Shown: positions 3,688 through 62,707 of the stretch, in pieces
Position numbering within the stretch: the stretch's first letter is position 1
How the letters are laid out: each line of letters opens with the position of its first letter
NCBI GenBank assembly: GCA_949317995.1
Contig: OX439045.1
Span: 44,163,693-44,227,692 of the forward strand
Length of the DNA: 64,000 bases
Direction of reading: 5' to 3'
From: Acholoe squamosa
Lineage: Eukaryota > Annelida > Polychaeta > Phyllodocida > Polynoidae
Notes under the pieces: model-generated
Database searches by the model: none
The model's input: the letters and a program-made list of their open reading frames with translations, nothing else
Told to the model about the DNA's origin: nothing
Translations under genes and position numbers: made by a program

Positions 3688-6429
3688 CTACCCCCAGACC
3701 CCTCCACTCCCACATCCGCACACACCTTGCATATATCCTCTACCTTCCCACAATGTACTCTTCAACCCAATCTAACCAGCAACACCAAAGTTCGATGTCC
3801 ATAGCACAGGGGATGCAGCAGGTCAAAAACTGTTTATCTGTTGCCTAGCTTGGACAACATCCACAGCCTAATCAATTTTTCTTTGAAACGCTGTTCATAA
3901 TTTCCTTTAACTTTACTGTACCTTCACTTTTACTCTTATTTCTGTACAAGAGGTCTTTGATTGATGGGCTCGAGAGCAATGAGTTGAACTTGGTGTGTTT
4001 GCTGCGTGGATTAAATGTGGCGATAGGTTAATCAGACTGCCCAATGTGTTTGCACCCGGAAGCTTTGCTTGGGAACACTGTTGACAGAATTATAATGGAG
4101 CACAGTCTGAATTTTCCCATACTGAATTCATGAATAATTTCGGTAAAAAGCAAGCGAACATCAATGTTGTATTATTCATTTGTACATAAGAGGTGAAAAT
4201 AATTATGGCTTGTCCGGTTTTGTTAATGTTAGTTAGCCATTACATATTATTGTTAAGAGTATGACTTTTGTTTCATTTATATATATTGATAAAGATCTTT
4301 TTTTTCGGATTTTTAGTATATTGGTATTGAGAGTCCAAAAATGCTTCCTCCATTTCCCGGAAAAGAAGATGCCTCCTTATATCATAATTATCAGAACTGG
4401 TGGTTGATAAGTGATCACTAAGTCTTTGATAATTATGAACACATCAATGGCCATTTCTTTGTGGTTCAAAGTAAATGATAAAGCATGTTGCATTAACCGC
4501 AAATTCAAATATGAACTTTATAACATCAATTATAAAGCATGACTACCTGAAAAAGGTCATATATAGGCCAGGGACCTACCCTTTACATGCAGACCTTTAG
4601 CAGTATTGATAACAGATCTTTTAATCAAGTGTCTACATTTAAGGTACGTGAGAATCTTTAATTAAGGGGACATCATCTGAATGTCAGTCCGTCCCAATTA
4701 ACTGACCATGGCTCTTTGGAAAGTTTTTGGAACCCCTAGCCTTTGATGGCCTCATGACAGAAGAAGGAGGAAGCGAGGAATTCCTTTCATGATCCAACAA
4801 CAGAGATTGGCCTTGGAGGGGCGTGGAGAGGTTATAGGGTGCATTGTAGAGGTGAAAAGAGAGTATTTGTATGGATAGAGGGATGGAGAGGGTGGTGATG
4901 ATAGTCACAAGGAGGGAGTGGAGATGGGAAAGGCGGAGGTAGGTGGACATGGGGATTGGAAGTGGGAGGGCGGGATGAAATCTAGGGTGAAATGGGTAAC
5001 GCTGGAGAGGGTAGGGTTTGTCAGGACACGGCTTCACTCTACTGGCACCAAGTACTAATCAATTGTACCTACCATCAGGGTCGGCTTTGACCAGTGACAT
5101 CAAAAGCACCATGACCATACAACTTCGTAGCGCACAAAGCCTCCCTAGGCTGGTGCCTAAGCCTCGTAAAAGATCCATACTGAGAGGTGATGAGGGGGCC
5201 TTCCCCCTGATCAGATCCCTCAACACTAAGTGCGTGCGGCCAATGGTCCTTTAGTACTTCTCCCTCCTGTTATCTCAGCCACAGGTGAAGGGTTCAAAGT
5301 AGGGGCATGGAACCCTATCCAGGTGCAAACACTACCCTTATCAAAACAAGGCGGATAACAGTGGAAAGCCAAGCCTTTTGTGGTCTTTGAATTTTGTGAG
5401 AACTTTGGCACTGACATATATTTGCAGAAAGAAATTCCAGGTGAGTGGGTCAGTGGAAAATAGTTCACGGCACTCCCTCGATAATTTGGATCCTTTATAT
5501 TGAATGCAATCCAAATGTTATTTGGGGTGAAGGTGGATATTAGGTCCTTACAAATTGTCAGAGGTGTTATCCTTGGCGCTCAGAAGTCCAGGAGTTATGA
5601 GTAAAACCCCGTATATATCCTATAGTGTTAATTGCCAATATTGACGAAGCTGGAAATTATGATAAACGGTCCTAATTTCACGCTCGGTGCTTCCAATTAT
5701 GGTCTGCTAATTATGCACCCCACGAGCGATTGATCAGCAACTTTTGACCACGCCCGGTATGATGAGAATGCAGCTGTGGTATTAAAGGTAACAACCACTA
5801 TCTCCCCTATCCTCTGCAGTAATCCCCATGCACACCCAATAGTAGCTAGCGCGGGAATGCCTGGCCTCCAGCCTCACTGGTTTAGTTATAGTCGTTGCCT
5901 CGTGCACAACTGCCACTCTATGATTGCCTCGCGACGCAAACGCCACCACTAGGGCCTTTTAGACTCTACAGCGCTTGAGCAGCTCTGAGGTGGGCGTTCC
6001 AGGCTCTGTCCCTCTGGCGGCAGGCGAGGGTACTAACACAGCTGGATGCAGTCACTCGGAGCTTCCGCCATCGACTGAGAGTCTCTGGCGGTCCACATCG
6101 CCTTTTGTGTAACGCGCCGTCGACGTTTGGGGGAGCCACCAGCGTAATCGGTGACATCTGCCACCGCCGTGAAACCAGGCGAAGTATCGTCTGTTCCGCG
6201 AACTCCTGAGACCTCAATTCTTTATCATAGCTTCCACGTAGAGGGGATATGAAACAACTGCGTTGCTGTTCACGGATATTGTGTAGTATGCCTTTTCTCT
6301 AATCTATGCAATATCTAGAGTTATACCATGACTTCTGTGATTTTGGGTGCTTTTTCTGGATATTCCCATGCACATACCTGTCGATATTGCACAGCATCAA
6401 GGCTGAAGCATCAATTTTGTAAGGCGTGC
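3688..6429. other. Non-coding stretch
   Basis: Mostly AT-rich unique sequence. A GC-rich patch at about 5940-6220 carries an 83-codon minus-strand frame with no recognisable domain or splice context. I cannot assign a function to it. Confidence 0.45.
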
Positions 6430-10683: not shown

Positions 10684-10865
10684 CGGGCTTCCCTAGCCCA
10701 CTTAAAAGGGTCTATATCTCCTCTTTTCTATCCCCTTGGATGTGTGTGGTGCACATATGCGCAGGCACTGACACATGCCTCTGTAAATTTGTGTAATGTC
10801 GTTCTCGCCATGAATATAACCTTAGCTGTCAAAATGGCGTTAACCATCTATTACTCACTCACTCA
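10684..10865 (+). mobile_element. TCAC-tailed SINE, full-length copy with 14-bp TSD
   Basis: Begins GGGCTTCCCTAGCCCACTTA and ends in (ACTC)n. It is flanked by the exact 14-bp direct repeat CTCCAGTAGCTGCC at 10670-10683 and 10866-10879, which is the target-site duplication of a retrotransposition into the minisatellite. Other copies: 24055-24238, 33525-33618, 13350-13430 and 52901-53084 (minus). There is no obvious tRNA A/B box, so the 5' head is of unknown origin. The shared 5' boundary argues for a SINE and against random LINE tail truncation. Confidence 0.85.
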
Positions 10866-18663: not shown

Positions 18664-19600
18664 CCACAGGGACTGACGAGAAACGCTTGGTTCGAACCAA
18701 GTCTGGATATGATACAAAGCCGTGTGCGCTGTCACTGTCCGCTGCCGCCATGCCGGGCGAGGAGGTGTATTTAGTATAGAAACATAACAGCGAGACGCAT
18801 TTGTAGGAGGAGACGTGGTGGTCTAGCGGTTAGCGCCTTGCGCTCAGCCGTCAGAGGTACATGGATCGCGTCCTGGTCCGGGCGCATCTTTTTTCGCCGT
18901 GTGCGCTGTCGCTGTCCGCTGCTGGGCGCAGAGGTGTATTATACACAAACATAACCGCGAGAAGCATCTTTTTTGCCGTGTGCGCTGCAGGGCGATGAGG
19001 TGTATGTATAACTAGTCTAACAGTTAGTAACACGGTCCGGGCGCATCTTTTTTCGCCGTGTGCGCTGCAGGGCGACGAGGTGTATGTACTGATCGTGTAC
19101 AAACACTATTTTTCGCCGTGTGCCGCTGCTAAGCCTAGCCGAGACCGGGGCTGTCGCTGTCCGCTGCCGGGCGCCGAGGTGTATGTACCGATCGTGTACA
19201 CACAATGGCTGGCATCGAGTCCCGGGGAGGGGGAATAATTTTTGTTTTCAACTTGAATTTATTGGTATTATATTGATTATTTATTGGTTTCGTGGTATAA
19301 AATAAGAAGTCAATGGATAACTCATGACTCGTGTGTGTTAGCAAAGGCTAATAACACTCGGCCTATGGCCTCATGTCCTTATCCTTCACTAACACACACT
19401 TTCCCCTTTCGGGCCCCCTATTTGGACATGTTATATGGGTGGACCAAAAGGGGGGGTCCTGACCCCCAGGACCCCCCCCCTGGATCCGCCCCAGGAAATT
19501 CTGGTCTTCATGGCATATCATTCAAACCTGGCACTAGTGAGCTATATAGACAACAAAATCTATTTGTATCTACATGAGTTATCCATTGGTTACTTGTTCA
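18664..19600 (+). mobile_element. Composite repeat, copy 2, with nested insertion
   Basis: Same order as 6601-7272: CAGGGACTGACGAGAAA, tRNA-like head at 18806-18890 (A-box TGGTCTAGCGGTTAGCGC), five CGCCGTGTGCGCTG...GAGGTGTAT modules, an AT-rich linker and the left hairpin arm (19306-19398). The right hairpin arm (19574-19600) is separated from the left by the 162-bp repeat at 19402-19563. The linker (19230-19310) is close to identical to 7076-7150. Confidence 0.65.
19402..19563 (+). repeat. Direct repeat, copy 1 (partner at 20551)
   Basis: A 162-bp block from TCCCCTTTCGGGCCCCCTAT to ACAACAAAATCTAT is repeated at 20551-20710 with only a 2-nt difference in a C run and very few other changes. 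It contains the inverted CTGGATCCGCCCC terminus of the 18191 element family. It interrupts the hairpin of composite copy 2. Confidence 0.85.
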
Positions 19601-20550: not shown

Positions 20551-20710
20551 TCCCCTTTCGGGCCCCCTATTTGGACATGTTATATGGGTGGACCAAAAGG
20601 GGGGGTCCTGACCCCCAGGACCCCCCCTGGATCCGCCCCAGGAAATTCTGGTCTTCATGGCATATCATTCAAACCTGGCACTAGTGAGCTATATAGACAA
20701 CAAAATCTAT
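20551..20710 (+). repeat. Direct repeat, copy 2 (partner at 19402)
   Basis: Nearly identical to 19402-19563. Preceded by CTAACCCCCCGGAGGGGGGG, a G/C palindrome. The high identity 1.15 kb away implies a recent local transposition or duplication. Confidence 0.85.
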
Positions 20711-22394
20711 CTGTTTCGTTGCCTGTCCGTCTGTCAGCCTATTTGTCAGTCTCCATTTATTTATCATTCTCCGGCCATAATCTGCCTTCCTCTATGTTTA
20801 GCTGTGTCTGCCCTTTTCTGTCACTCTTTGCCTCACTCTTTCTCAATCCCACCCTTCCCCTTTCCTCTTTTCGATCCCTCTCCACCCACACTTTGCTTGG
20901 GTTAAAGTTCACACTTAATGCAATTTAATAAGCTCAAATTCATGATTTGATTTTAATTGAATTTCAGTGACGTACCTGGATATGGATCAGGTGAAGGTGT
21001 TAAATAAATTGCTCATGTTAATCCGCCATGTGACTCCTCTGTGGTATTGGTGACCAGGGCCACATGGGCAGTTCACATCGAGTAATCGATAATGGTAATG
21101 TCAGCTGGCAAATGGAGCAATGAAGCGTTGACTGGCAATAACATGATTAACAGCGATCGCGACAAACCTAGGACAATTATCGACTGAATCAATAGTGCTC
21201 CAACGAAGGCTTATAAAAGGAATATCTAAATTAAACAATAGAAAAGAATGAGTTGTATTGGGAGCTGTCTGTGTTGAGAAATGCTTTGGTACGTTGGCAG
21301 GGACACGTGCTTTTATGGCTTGTCATCTCAGGCCTTTCCCACTATGACTATCTTATTTCCAATCACAAAGTATGACGATGCTCAGATTCATACCTGTTCC
21401 GAAGAAAGAATGAGAGCGTCTTTGTCTCAGGAACATAACACAGGCAACAGGTTTCCTAAGATAGGATGAATGATTTGCCGGAATAGTATATTATGGGTAG
21501 CCACTTTAATAAATAGCCTGATATAAGTTCAACATTATGCAACCACATAATGTCATACCTTTGCCACCCTCGACCATACCGCCCTTTGCCCCATGTTCTC
21601 TATTCTTCCTTCATTCCCTCTCCCTCCCCCCGGGGAACTCAGTTCTTCCTCCTGTTGATTCAGCCGCCCTGGTCATCGACCACCTCAGGGTCTGGGTACC
21701 CTCCAGGGTGGACTGCTCTGAGCTGCTCATCAGATCACAAGCTTTATCTCTACCCCTCCACACCACCCGGCGTATCAGCTAAGCTGTACCAGGCCTTTCC
21801 CTTTTATGTTCCATCTCTTTCTATTTTGGAGAAAATATATGTATTTCAGTGAAGTTGCAGCTCCGTATGCATCTTGACTTAAAAAATGCTCTGAGCAAAA
21901 TCTAATTTTGGTTACTACATTAATTAAATATAGTACCGACATTGTAGTCTCCATGAATATCAGTGGTTTTCCCATAGAGTTGTGGATGATATAGGACATA
22001 TCGAATGAATTATCACTTTTTATCAAATCCAATGGTACTGCGATTCATCAAGATGTTTTTTCATGTAAAATGATGGCACAGCAGGCAACACAGGCAAACA
22101 TAAAGACAACTAAAACAAAATACATATTCCGCAGTGTGGCTGATGTAAAACCATATTCTACTTTGGAAAATACTTACGACTAAGATTATGATACAGAGAT
22201 AATGTTATGAGTTCGCCAGGTTTATGTTTCTTTGTCGTTATTATGCAATTTCTTCACATGAATCAGCCATCATGGTATACTTACACCTTTTCCTGTTTCT
22301 TAATGCAGTTCTGGGGAAGTCTACTAATTATTGCTATAGCGATTGTATTACATTAATTCATTGAGAGTGTTTCAGGCCCTTCGGATAGGTGTGA
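20711..22394. other. Non-coding stretch with possible conserved-element character
   Basis: The 21040-21190 segment is rich in ATTA, ATCGAT and GCGATCGC-type motifs and lacks simple repeats. This is the kind of composition seen in developmental enhancers, but conservation cannot be judged here. No exon is supported. Two overlapping frames at 21537-21852 look fortuitous. Confidence 0.3.
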
Positions 22395-48803: not shown

Positions 48804-50595
48804 ATTAAAAGACATGTCAGACCTAAAAAGACTTTTCCTTGTTTTTCTATAGATATTAATAGGCCGGGGGCTGATAGGGCCCACCATGCACCCCCCCACA
48901 TCCCAACGCGACGGGTATTTTGTCGACCCTTAGGGTCCACTGAACAAGATTCAACATTGATTATCTTGGGATGCACTACCGGTTTTGGCTCATTATCCAT
49001 GTGCGGGTTCAGACCACTTTTGGGTCAATTTTTGTACCATGTTTTTCAAGGGGTAGCTCAATCTCCAAGCTCTAAGACTATCTTACCTTGTCTGGATCCT
49101 GAAGCTATTGGTCTTGTTGGAAAGAAGACATAATAAGCTTTTCATTAAGCCCTAATACATGTTTCTAAGCTCAGATTTGAGTGTACCAGACAGTCAGGAA
49201 GACGGAAGATTGAAATTACTAAGTTCCTTTTTTTTACTGAAAATCTTAAATGCGCTCCAGATACATGTATAAACTTGCCCTTATCCCCATCTAAGCACAA
49301 TATCTAATATGATTTATGTAGGCCAAACCTCTCCGAGTAATATGAGACATTCTGCAGAAATCCTTGATGACTATGACACACATTATTGCCTTGGACGCAA
49401 AGACACTACCTTGAGCCAATACAATGCTGTTCCATTTTAATAATCTCCCTCTTTATGTAAATGGATGTTTTTCCATGCTAAATCTTTATCAATCCTCCTG
49501 ATTCTTATGCTAAAAAGAGTGCTGATTAAGAATATGTATGTTTCTACTTCATAAAATTTAATGGCGAGGCTGTGTATGGCTGAAAATCAAAATGGCTGAC
49601 AATAGATTCAGATGTCACTTTGAATTACATAAATGTGCAGTCTAGAAAGTATCTTGTGGGCCCTATCCCCTATAAATCAGCTTAGTAGAATACAGTGCTG
49701 CTTTTGTTTTGTTGCTAAGTGATGTGGCTGCCTAGCAACAGCAGCTTTGCAGAGCTACCAAGCCTGAAAATATTGATGTAATTCAAAGTGACATCTGAAT
49801 CTATTGTCGGCCATTTTGATTTTCAGCCATACACAGCCTTGCCATTAAATTTTATGAAGTAGAAACATGCATATTCTTAATCAGCACTCTTTTTAGCATA
49901 AGAATCAGGAGAATTGATAAAGATTTAGCATGGAAAAACATCCATTTACATAAAGAGGGAGATTATTGAAATGGAACATCATCGTATTGGCTCAAGGTAG
50001 TGTCTTTGCGGCCAAGGCAATAACGTGTGTCATAGTCATCAAGGATTTCTGCAAAATGTCTCATATTACCAAATGTCTCATATTACCTACTCAAAGAGGT
50101 TTGGCCTACATAAATCATATTAGATATTGTGCTAAGATGGGGATAAGGGCGAGTTTTATACATGTATCTTGAGCGCATTTAAGACCTTCAGTAAAAAAAA
50201 GGAACTTTGTAATTTTAATCTTCCGTCTTCCCGACTGTCTGGTACACTCAAATCTGAGCTTAAAAACATGTATTAGGGCTTAATAAAAAACTTATTATGT
50301 CTTCTCCCAACAAGACCAATAGCTTCAGGATCCAGACAAGGTAAGATAGTCTTAGAGCTTGGGGATTGTGCATACCCCTTGAATAACATGGTACTAAAAT
50401 TGACCCAAAAGTGGTCTGAACCTGCACATGGACAATGAGCCAAAACCGGTAGTGCATCCCAAGATAATCAATGTTAACATCTTGAATCTTGTTCAGGTGT
50501 CGGGGGGGGGGGGGTGCATGGTGGGCCCTATCAGTCCCAGCCTATAAGCTTTAATTTCAAGTGCAAGTTTCTTAGGTTTTATGTCAACTTTTAAG
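48804..50595. mobile_element. Large foldback element, arms about 820 bp
   Basis: The left arm 48804-49630 and right arm 49776-50595 are inverted copies over nearly their whole length: CTGATAGGGCCCACCATGCA, then GATTATCTTGGGATGCACTA, then TAAGCCCTAATACATGTTT, then AGATTCAGATGTCACTTTGA. By eye the arms are highly similar with substitutions and small indels, so this is not an assembly mirror. The loop (49631-49775) has its own GTTGCTA/TAGCAAC hairpin. No transposase is seen; a 118-codon frame in the left arm (48777-49133) is not preserved as such in the right arm. A transcript through it would form a long hairpin RNA. Confidence 0.85.
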
Positions 50596-51338: not shown

Positions 51339-51713
51339 TTGCTGCCTTGTCTTAGACCTGACCTGCCTTGAGTTGTATGCCTTGTCTTAGGGAGTGGTCA
51401 TTATTCATCAACAGAGGGGGGCTTTGGGCTCCTTTTTGCACAGATGCATGAAATATATTTATTCCCCCCCCTCGATGGCAGTCAAAAATTTTTGTGCACA
51501 TGGAGAATTTTCGCGCCCCTCTTTGATCTATAGGTGGTAGCACCACATATGCATTTTTGCTAAAAAGAGAGTAATTTTTTTTACGCCCGCCCCCTCAAGA
51601 GGGACCAAATCTTTTTACACCCCCCCTCAGGAGGGGTCTACAAATTTTACGCCCCTTATCCAGGTCTTGTCTTATACCTGACCTGCTTTGTCTCAGACCT
51701 GACCTGCCTTGTT
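51339..51713 (+). repeat. 20-bp CCTGACCTGCCTTGTCT tandem repeats (left block)
   Basis: Units CTGACCTGCCTTGTCTCAGA and variants occur at 51339-51390 and 51665-51713. The C-rich middle (51570-51660) has CCCCTCAAGAGGG and CCCCTCAGGAGGGG palindromes. The array continues at 52638-52710 beyond the foldback at 51714. Confidence 0.65.
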
Positions 51714-52437
51714 GTAAGGGGGAGATTCCTCAAAAACAAATTTTCATGTAAAATAAATGTAAAACACATCAAACCTGTCCATAATATACATGGTTGGAAG
51801 TGTAATCAATGCCTCTATCAATTTCCTTCCATCCTGTAATATTTTGTTGTCTATGGAATGTTTATAGAACAAAAACATTCTTTTTTAGTTCTTTTTGCTT
51901 AGAACAGCACTAATTTTCAATTTTAATGAGTGGAGAACAGTTTTGGAGGGATTTCGGAAGGCACTTTTTTTTCTTTTGATGATACTCCAATTATTAAGGT
52001 CTACAGAGCTGTTCAAAGCTGGGTTGTCATTCAGAAAGTGTAATTTGCAAGGGAAAATGGGCGAAAATAGGTGAAAATTACACTTTTTGAATGACAACCC
52101 AACTTTGAACAGCTCTGTAGACCTTAATAATTGGAGTATCAAAAGAAGAAAAAAAAGTGCCCTCAGAAATCCCTCTAAAATCCATCTGAAATCATAAGAA
52201 GTAACATAGATGACAGATTCTTATCCTATAATGATGTTCTAAGAATAAGGAGGCTAAAAAAGAACATTTTTGTTCCATTCACATTCCATAGACAACAAAA
52301 TTTACAAGATGGAAGGAAATTGATAAAGGCATTAATTACACTTCCAACTATGTATAATATGTCCAGGTTTATTAAGATTTTCACTTATTCTACATGTCAA
52401 AATGTTTTTGTGGGAGCTGCCCCTTACGACCCCTTAA
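51714..52437. mobile_element. Foldback element, arms about 340 bp
   Basis: Left terminus GTAAGGGGGAGATTCCTC, inverted right terminus GTAAGGGGCAGCTCCCAC. The arms then pair along their length (GGAAGTGTAAT, ATCAATTTCCTTCCATC, TTTTGTTGTCTATGGAATG, TCCAATTATTAAGGTCTACA, GGGTTGTCATTC) to a loop of about 28 nt at 52047-52074. No transposase. It sits in the CCTGACCTGCCTTG array. Confidence 0.85.
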
Positions 52438-52710: not shown

Positions 52711-53330
52711 CCCGGGGGGCACTCAATTTTTTTTGACATGGGTGTACGGCTGGAGGTTCTGCAACCCTTGCCTAGGGAGATTCCGAAGAAAATGGACCCT
52801 TGCCTAGGGAAATTAGAAAGAAGAATTTCTATTTTTCATGCCATTTCTGGAAAAATAGACCTTTTCTTAGAGAACCTTTGGAGAAAATGGAAGAATTTGG
52901 GAGTGAGTGAGTGAGTAATAGATGTTTAACACCATTTCGACAGCTAAGGTCATATTCATGGCGAGAACTTCATTACACAATTTCACAGGTGAATGTGTCA
53001 GTGCCCGCGCATATGTGCTCCACACACATCCCAAGGGGATAGGAAAGAGGAGAGATAGACCCTTTTAAGTGGGCTAGGGAAGCCAGAAGAATGTTGGGGA
53101 AAAAAGTTTAAAATTGACCTGCATTTTGAGCAATTTCATGAAAAATAATCTGCGTTCGCAGCATTACTCAAAATGGACCCTTGCCTAGGGAGATTTTCCT
53201 AAAAGTGTCCCTTGCCTAGGGAGATTTCCGAAAAGTAGTCCCTTGCCTAGGGAGATTTCCGAAAAGTAGACCCTTGCCTAGGGAGATTTCCGAAAAGTAG
53301 TCCCTTGCCTAGGGATATAAATTGCTCTAT
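52711..53330 (+). mobile_element. G-run-ended element with 31-bp CCTTGCCTAGGG repeats, split by a SINE
   Basis: The left end CCCCGGGGGGCACTCAA matches the terminus of the 56215 element. The interior has CCCTTGCCTAGGGAGATT units at 52767 and 52797, then, after the nested SINE, five further units of 31 bp at 53174-53316 (CCTTGCCTAGGGAGATTTCC). There is no inverted right end, so the element is truncated or incomplete. The repeats have no spacers and are not a CRISPR array. Confidence 0.65.
52901..53084 (-). mobile_element. TCAC-tailed SINE, full-length, minus strand
   Basis: GAGTGAGTGAGTGAGTAATA at the left is the tail; the head GGGCTTCCCTAGCCCACTTA lies at the right on the minus strand. The flanks GAAGAATTTGGG and GAAGAATGTTGGGG look like a slightly diverged target duplication. 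It is nested within the 52711 element. Confidence 0.85.
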
Positions 53331-60270: not shown

Positions 60271-60345
60271 TACTGTTGAGCGTTTCGGCTCACCGGGTAT
60301 CAGCCAACAGGATGTTTTCAACTAGAAGTCATACCGGAAGTGAAC

Positions 60346-60982
60346 ATGCCCTGCAGCCAATACCTGGGACTCTGGCGGGCCGTCCTGGCGGAGATTCTTG
60401 GTACCTTTCTCGTGAACCTCCTCATAGGGCCTATTGCTGGACAGCTTCAACAGACGCGTACCATAGACGTCTTCTTGTATGGAGCCCTTTACGCATGCGT
60501 ATCCGTTGCCATGACACTAAGCATGCGCGAAGTGAGTGGCGGGCATCTTAATCCCGCCGTCACTATTGCCATGTTGGTATCCAGACGCACTAATGCCGCC
60601 AGGGCTTTGTTGTATTTTACCGCGCAATGTTCTGGAGGGGTGATGGGGTCAGCACTTCTCTATGCCTTACTAAAGGACAAGTATGTTGGGGCTACACTAG
60701 TGGATGATAAACTAGACATTGCCCAGGCATTTGGTATGGAAACTATGGGGACATTCATGTATGTGTTTTCATATTTCGCCGCCATGGATAAGAGCAGAAA
60801 AGAAGGACCCTCTGGAGGATCGCCGTCCATATTACTCACATCCATGTTTACAGCCATTATTTTTACGGTAAGATACAGTATTTTATTATACATTTCAGGC
60901 GTTTGTAGACTGAAAAATGCATGTCAAATAATACTGGTTACAAAGTTTTTCTTATTGTCAATAACACTTGAAGCAATGTCAG

Positions 60983-61056
<74 letters not shown>

Positions 61057-62431
61057 GAGAGGGAGAGGGAGAGAGAGAGACAGAGAGAGACAGAGAGAGA
61101 CAGAGAGACAGACAGACAGACAGACAGAGAAAGAAAGAGGGACAGAGAGACAGAGACAGACCGATCCAAGTGATCGACAAGTCTAACGATTACAATCCAA
61201 TAATTATGACATTCACTGAAGGACTATCCTAATAGGCTAGAAACTGGAGCTATTGAATAAGAATGTAGCACATGGTGAAAAATTTCCAGGGGTGAAATGG
61301 AAAAAAAAGTTTTTATGTGTTGTTCTAAATTTGTGTATTTTGTTTCCTTTTCTTTCCTCATTCGCTCACAATACCACTTTCTACCCATCCTTGCACAATT
61401 TCTCTAACGTTTCGAAGCTTCCAAGAATTATTACTAGAATACGTAATGGACACTCCTATCTGGCAATGAAGACCCCTGTCGATCATATAATTTGCTTTCC
61501 TTGACGACCTAAAGGAGGCAGCATGGAAGAAATATTTAGTACTCCCCTGTCACACTAGGTGCCTCTTTTGCTTGTCGGGAGAGGGCGAAGTTCTTTTCTC
61601 TATGGGAGTAGCAGCGAGTGGAACCCATTGGGAGAGCACTTTCTATTATTTATTCCCCCAACAAAGGCTTCTCAAATCATTAGCACTGTACTTATTGTGC
61701 TCTTTTGCAGAGACCCTACACAGGGGGGAGTATTAATCCTGCTCGGAGCTTAGGGCCAGCCATTATAGAGGGAAGATGGAACCGACATTGGGTAGGTGCT
61801 ATTACACGTGATATATGGGCAATGATGCCATGGCAGCCATATTTAGGTCTACTCTGTCCATCATAATTTTCCCTTTGTTTTCATTTCTTCAATTTGCACA
61901 GCTGTTGCAGTAGCATATATTTTGTGTACACATGCTGACACTATTCTAGTGATATGTACATGTATAAAATCTCACTTTTATGCTAGGGCTTAGAGAGTGT
62001 TTTTTTTTTATTTAGGAATTACTTCATATAGAAAACACCTCTCTACTCCTGTACATATCAATAATAATCATTTAAGATTGTAGCTTTTAATAACATTTCC
62101 CTTCAATCGACAGGTATTTTGGTTGGGACCTCTGGTTGGAGGATCTGTTGGAGGCTTTCTCTACGACCTTGTCTTTGCCGCAAATGCATCACGACGTCGC
62201 GCCTTATCTTTTATCTCTGACGGCGACTATAACGCTGACAATGATTATGGTGTCAAATCCAATGTTGTGACGTCATCAACGTCGGGTCATTCTTATCACC
62301 CTCGACGTCATCAACACACGCACAGAACTGACCGGAACCGGAAGGGGCATCGTGACCAAAAGTCAAGGTCCTCTTTACATCTCGGAGTTGACGAGACTTC
62401 ATTGACTTATGAAAAAATGAATGCTGTGTGA
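60346..62431 (+). CDS. Aquaporin (MIP family), three coding exons, 306 aa
   Basis: Membrane channel for water or small neutral solutes. Exons: 60346-60867, 61711-61791, 62114-62431, all joined in phase 0 with GT-AG introns (ACG|GTAAGA, TTGCAG|AGA, TGG|GTAGGT, GACAG|GTA). The ATG is the first in frame after an in-frame TGA at 60277. Start-site features: WRAVLAEILGTF (helix 1 with Glu16), HLNPAVT (first NPA, N69), ETMGTF (helix 4 Glu132), GGSINPARS (second NPA, N183, with Arg186), WLGPLVGG (helix 6). Length and order are typical of classical aquaporins, followed by an Arg/His/Ser-rich cytoplasmic tail of about 80 residues. By alignment to AQP1 the filter is Tyr49, Ile171/172, Gly180, Arg186, so the water-type His and the mercury-site Cys are absent. 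Intron 1 holds a long (GA)n tract. The subfamily is uncertain; AQP8-like permeability is inference. Confidence 0.93.
60986..61161 (+). repeat. (GA)n/(GACA)n microsatellite in aquaporin intron 1
   Basis: GAGA runs with interspersed GACAGA, about 176 bp. It produces artificial RERERE and SLSLSL frames on the two strands, which are not genes. Confidence 0.95.
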
Positions 62432-62646: not shown

Positions 62647-62707
62647 ATTATGGTGTCAAATCTAATGTTGTGACGTCATCAACGTCGGGTCATTCTTATC
62701 ACCCTCG
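62647..62707 (+). repeat. 61-bp duplicate of aquaporin exon 3 in its 3' UTR
   Basis: 62244-62304, which encodes the tail segment YGVKSNVVTSSTSGHSYHPR, recurs at 62647-62707 with one visible substitution (AAATCC to AAATCT). Both contain the CRE-like TGACGTCA. It lies after the stop codon and before the AATAAA at 62855, so it is predicted to be within the 3' UTR. Confidence 0.9.

Follow-up and report, generated by a model that had tools for sequence, protein, structure and literature searches.

A foldback in the genome of Acholoe squamosa, very probably an old copy, shortened by internal deletion, from a non-autonomous transposon family with long terminal inverted repeats

The window analysed, a stretch of 64,000 nucleotides of the genome of the polychaete A. 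squamosa (contig OX439045.1), contained a foldback consisting of two inverted arms (48859-49634, 776 bp, and 49772-50545, 774 bp) on either side of a spacer of 137 bp, as retrieved by local alignment of the window. The initial annotation had correctly seen inverted arms at this place, although its outer limits (48804 and 50595) lay about 50 bp too far out at either end and its sizes, arms of about 820 bp and a loop of 145 bp, were slightly too large. The alignment of the arms that it had proposed gave 708 identical positions over 743 ungapped columns (95.3%), with 64 gap columns, 23 transitions and 12 transversions, a match that is by inspection far beyond chance. Divergence did not change significantly along the arms (permutation with four cut points, p 0.19-0.26). 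The shape alone would be compatible with an assembly mirror or a foldback-read artefact, but the 35 substitutions, showing no significant gradient, argue against a mirror, as had been concluded earlier from the divergence of the arms. Together with several indels between the arms and the occurrence of similar structures with target duplications elsewhere in the genome, they leave an artefact with a nearly negligible probability. Comparison with related copies set the bounds of the element proper at 48860-50544, about 1.7 kb (Table 1). Among ten ORFs of the window that were compared with Pfam, the seven of this foldback gave zero matches; the initial annotation had recognised neither a transposase nor a gene fragment inside the arms. 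Furthermore, Rfam returned no matches in the window at the gathering threshold and a scan for viral-contig patterns returned none.

Table 1. Features of the foldback element, in positions of the window.
Feature	Position	Strand	Basis
Left target-site duplication copy, TAA	48857..48859	+	Flank comparison among copies
Left TIR remnant, TIR positions 1 to ~927 (L009 numbering)	48860..49771	+	Arm alignment, fuller copies
'Loop': inner left TIR, positions ~790-927, right partner missing	49635..49771	+	Both arms of eight other copies contain it
Deletion junction, left TIR ~927 to right TIR ~789, AT shared	49771..49772	.	Comparison with L009
Right TIR remnant, TIR positions ~789 to 1	49772..50544	-	Arm alignment, fuller copies
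Right target-site duplication copy, TAA	50545..50547	+	Flank comparison among copies

Several other features were present in the window. A second foldback lay 1.2 kb downstream (arms 51711-52049, 339 bp, and 52072-52430, 359 bp; spacer of 22 bp), with arms identical in 287 of 335 ungapped columns (85.7%); of its two ORFs compared with Pfam, one had a single match, below cut-off. A short dispersed repeat occurred at 10733, 13363, 24103, 33533 and, inverted, at 52900, in copies about 80-89% alike, and two direct repeats about 1.15 kb apart (19402-19570 and 20551-20717) were 98-100% identical. An aquaporin-type ORF (MIP; Pfam, E 4e-29) was located at 60280-61170, followed by a 61-bp direct repeat (62244-62304 and 62647-62707, 403 bp apart, 98% identical).

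The origin of the arms, left open by the initial annotation, became clear from matches in the window's own genome (1.48 Gb in 63 contigs). The left arm as query retrieved at least 44 matching places, the window included, with 40 of 1,753 candidates scored. Among the matches listed, those other than the window itself were 88-95% identical to the query, and 39 of the 44 started within query bases 50-58, corresponding to window positions 48853-48861. Genome-wide, the 26-bp terminal sequence occurred 1,352 times with at most three mismatches (659 and 693 times on the two strands), compared with zero occurrences of its reversed control. A first sample of 20 copies with flanks, followed by one flank and two copies and then by four more copies, was fetched, and the arm matches inspected were copies of the element. 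Of the 20 copies in the first sample, 15 had an inverted arm or arm fragment inward of the query arm, and no inverted partner was seen within the sampled stretches of the other five (L011, L017, L020, L021 and L022). Four well-preserved copies possessed terminal inverted repeats (TIRs) of about 1.31-1.32 kb, with own-arm identities of 97.4% (L009), 93.9% (L010), 97.6% (L014) and 96.0% (L024), enclosing a middle of about 1.4-2.3 kb. Such well-preserved copies were about 4-6 kb long and had the termini TAGGCC...GGCCTA, and their inner TIR contained two diverged units of about 180 bp (67-70% identity). The middle of L009 was dispersed too, with at least 124 matching pieces when 40 of 4,730 candidates were scored. 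Among the extra segments present in the longest copies, one of L036 and one of L009 matched other repeats of the window; for the other segment of L036, the second of L009 and those of L037, L038 and L039, no match was found in the window or the fetched loci. In addition, the copy in L039 (105-522) measured 418 bp and had both TIR ends but unequal 3-bp flanks, and its inner 157 bp had no other match in the window or the fetched loci.

The longest stop-to-stop frame comprised 102 codons in L009, L010, L013, L014 and L024 and 138 codons in L036-L038, and a Pfam comparison of six ORFs from other copies yielded one match below cut-off and none above it. Because of these short frames and the lack of a Pfam match over cut-off, the copies examined are taken as non-autonomous. 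The family displays the features of cut-and-paste transposons with TIRs, namely TIRs at both ends, a target duplication of fixed length and dispersed copies with the same ends, and the arm of the foldback is the outer part of the approximately 1.3-kb TIR of this non-coding family. Of the two possibilities considered by the initial annotation, a foldback transposon or a hairpin-RNA locus, it is the transposon structure that is borne out, by the many long-TIR copies, the 3-bp target duplications and the absence of coding capacity in the copies examined.

An exact 3-bp direct repeat, never a longer one, was found immediately outside the termini in 18 of 20 two-ended copies, including the window. 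The duplicated triplets were TTA (five copies), CTT, CTA and TAA (two each) and TAC, ATA, TCA, TTT, TAT, CAA and CAG (one each), that of the window being TAA; the flanks of L028 and L039 showed no 3-bp match. As a control, the left flank of one copy was compared with the right flank of another, which gave a 3-bp match in 30 of 380 comparisons, a rate at which the match of the window, taken singly, could be due to chance. For L013, L014 and L025 the outermost ends were used, a choice made after the data had been seen; leaving these three copies out gives 15 of 17. For L013 and L014, a duplication at the inner arm ends had been tried first and had failed, whereupon the outermost ends were taken. 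The count excludes the loci with one end or none (L011, L017, L018, L020, L021, L022, L030, L033, L034 and L035), L029 (flank only), L032 (the same place as L009) and L001-L008 (the place of the window or those of L009-L014).

The 137-bp spacer of the window was complete in both arms of L009, L010, L014, L015, L018, L019, L024 and L025 (85-96% identity). Because the 'loop' thus continues the arm in fuller copies, the structure in the window is interpreted as an internally deleted copy, its 'loop' being left-arm sequence whose inverted partner is missing. Compared with L009, about 3.25 kb is missing, with a 2-bp microhomology (AT) at the junction, and this junction was not found in any other fetched locus, L001 being the window's own place. 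Further shortened copies, each with its own breakpoints, were L012, L023, L026, L028 and L031. The breakpoints at L014 1217, L016 3826, L025 7250 and L031 1001 all fell at TIR positions 346-362, at different bases, and this interval is possibly a fragile site. An exact inverted copy (12 bp) of the terminal motif GATAGGGCCCAC was present at 49656-49667, inside the part of the TIR that forms the spacer. Twelve bases common to a shuffled spacer and the arm ends occurred in 0 of 2,000 shuffles, and common to a shuffled spacer and the whole arm in 26 of 2,000, and the inner copy is possibly a second transposase-binding site. This spacer motif had also suggested that the left arm could be a complete element of about 810 bp with its own inner TIR, an idea abandoned on the evidence of fuller copies, in which the arm extends to about 1.3 kb.

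The history of the arms was approached with a tree of 40 arms, in which a copy's own arms were sisters in six of 14 two-armed copies, five of them with starred support. The arms of the window were not sisters, and their identity (94.5%) lay close to the family median (94.3%). This pattern is as expected of an old insertion stemming from a star-like burst; by itself it would also be compatible with arms brought together by chance or with recombination between two copies. Two solo repeats of about 800 bp could have inserted independently head to head, or two full copies from different places could have recombined, which would account for the non-sister arms, for their identity near the family median and for the five of the 20 fetched copies in which no inverted partner is visible. 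However, the two-arm architecture recurs in the other 15 fetched copies, the spacer is continuous arm sequence and the matching TAA occurs only at the outermost ends. On these three grounds, a chance juxtaposition was decided against, and the independent insertion of two solo repeats, named in the initial annotation as the case that would overturn its reading, is not favoured; this whole group of explanations is considered improbable. Very probably, then, the foldback belongs to a large family of non-autonomous cut-and-paste elements whose TIRs measure about 1.3 kb, and is an old copy that has undergone an internal deletion. Its history would begin with the transposase of an autonomous relative, a postulated component, recognising the TAGGCCGGGGGCTGATAGGGCCCACC ends and inserting the element with duplication of 3 bp, the ends and the duplication being observed. 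A break within the element, whether it preceded or followed this insertion, would have been repaired by a presumed pathway such that position ~927 of the left arm was joined to ~789 of the right one, as seen at the junction. This joining would have removed the middle and the inner parts of the arms, leaving the 137-bp spacer, and point mutation would then have separated the arms.

A long hairpin was predicted for either strand of the foldback (-1293.5 and -1303.1 kcal/mol, with 739 and 753 arm-to-arm pairs), and transposon TIRs can give rise to siRNAs. An arm transcript could accordingly form long double-stranded RNA, diced into endo-siRNAs directed against the transposon family or a host target. 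However, the strong predicted fold follows from the inverted repeat and says nothing of use, the same potential exists in many other copies, and the arms are a transposon TIR and no copy of a known gene, with no Pfam match for the seven ORFs. A hairpin-RNA locus is therefore regarded as very improbable, and double-stranded RNA or siRNA from this element would be a physical possibility of low prior probability. The foldback is not a gene-derived hairpin; it is of an ordinary kind, a foldback-like transposon copy with an internal deletion and no evident function of its own.

As to classification, FB elements have a target duplication of 9 bp and Harbinger elements prefer TWA as target; seven of the 18 duplications found here were TWA (TTA five times, TAA twice). 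The 3-bp duplication argues against the Foldback/Mutator type, the Galileo/P type and the TA type of Tc1/mariner, as none of the 18 matching copies had the 8-10 bp of the first or the 7-8 bp of the second, and duplications outside TAGGCC...GGCCTA such as TTA, CTT, CAG, TCA and others differ from the TA of the third. Tetris, a Foldback-like element of Drosophila assigned by its authors to Mutator (PMC4079207), resembles the present family in its long TIRs, non-coding copies, subterminal repeated TIR units and many rearranged copies, and an autonomous partner was found in neither; it differs in its target duplication of 8-10 bp instead of 3 bp and in its arrays, whereas the inner TIR here contains only two diverged units of about 180 bp. 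Similarly, Galileo of Drosophila (P superfamily; PMC4168063) has long TIRs of variable length into which non-TIR sequence can enter, but it has target duplications of 7-8 bp and a P-type transposase, in contrast to the 3 bp of the present family, for which a transposase was not found. In the pogo group, TAA duplications occur in some Fot elements (PMC7386202), but a fixed TAA does not fit the varied triplets observed here. Zator shares the 3-bp target duplication, and 3 bp also falls within the 0-4 bp of Harbinger and its relatives (PMC10045372), so that Zator, Harbinger or another 3-bp group is a possible superfamily; the difference from both is that searches with PF07592 and PF13359 did not link a matching transposase to the TIRs of the family. 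PF07592 (Zator/ISAzo13-type) gave no matches, the control being equally silent (0 of 14 control genomes). PF13359 (DDE_Tnp_4) gave at least 151 matches in the genome, with 150 of 2,936 candidates scored; the TIR of the family was absent within about 1.5 kb in all eight loci fetched. Among the PF13359 matches listed (L040-L047 and other places), a large group had an open frame of 304 codons, and most were free of stops. These Harbinger-type matches apparently represent a separate, recently spread family.

Three sister copies displayed rearranged arm ends. In L013, the right TIR end was followed by a segment of 863 bp (4738-5600) and then by a leftover piece of TIR (5601-5827); over its full length, this segment matched the left host flank in reverse complement (seven substitutions and six gap columns in 869), and the outermost ends carried matching ATA. 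L014 was its mirror image, with a TIR fragment (858-1217) followed by 458 bp (1218-1675) that inverted the right host flank (five substitutions and one gap column in 459) and by the full element, the outermost ends being CTT and CTT. In L025 an arm end was repeated over about 346 bp with no captured flank, and the outermost ends were likewise CTT and CTT. The simplest account of the structures observed in these three copies would be that a break in one arm was repaired by copying the opposite arm and that, in L013 and L014, copying overshot the element end into host DNA and then rejoined. More generally, the family may rebuild broken arms on the opposite arm, with overshoot capturing host DNA between the outermost ends and with L013, L014 and L025 as snapshots of the process, a tentative proposal whose chances are put at slightly below even.

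Capture by TIR elements is known, since animal Pack-TIRs have been described, which according to Tan et al. arise by gap filling and template switching (PMC8277862). L013 and L014 resemble them in having non-element DNA, often from nearby, within a TIR element; they differ in that the filler is their own flank, inverted and adjoining a full TIR end. This layout, in sister copies and not in the window copy, is as expected with the opposite arm as template. Capture of an element's own flank by way of the opposite arm was not found in the passages of PMC8277862 and PMC4168063 drawn on here, a statement that makes no claim of its being unpublished. The family is useful in this respect, as it is abundant, its exact 3-bp duplications mark the original ends and some of its arms look repaired from the opposite arm, with capture of flanking DNA, which opens one path of TIR lengthening and host capture to testing from sequence alone. 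The flank capture in the sister copies deserves more interest than the window copy itself; if the proposal is true, it would be one way for foldback transposons to grow longer and acquire sequence from the host.
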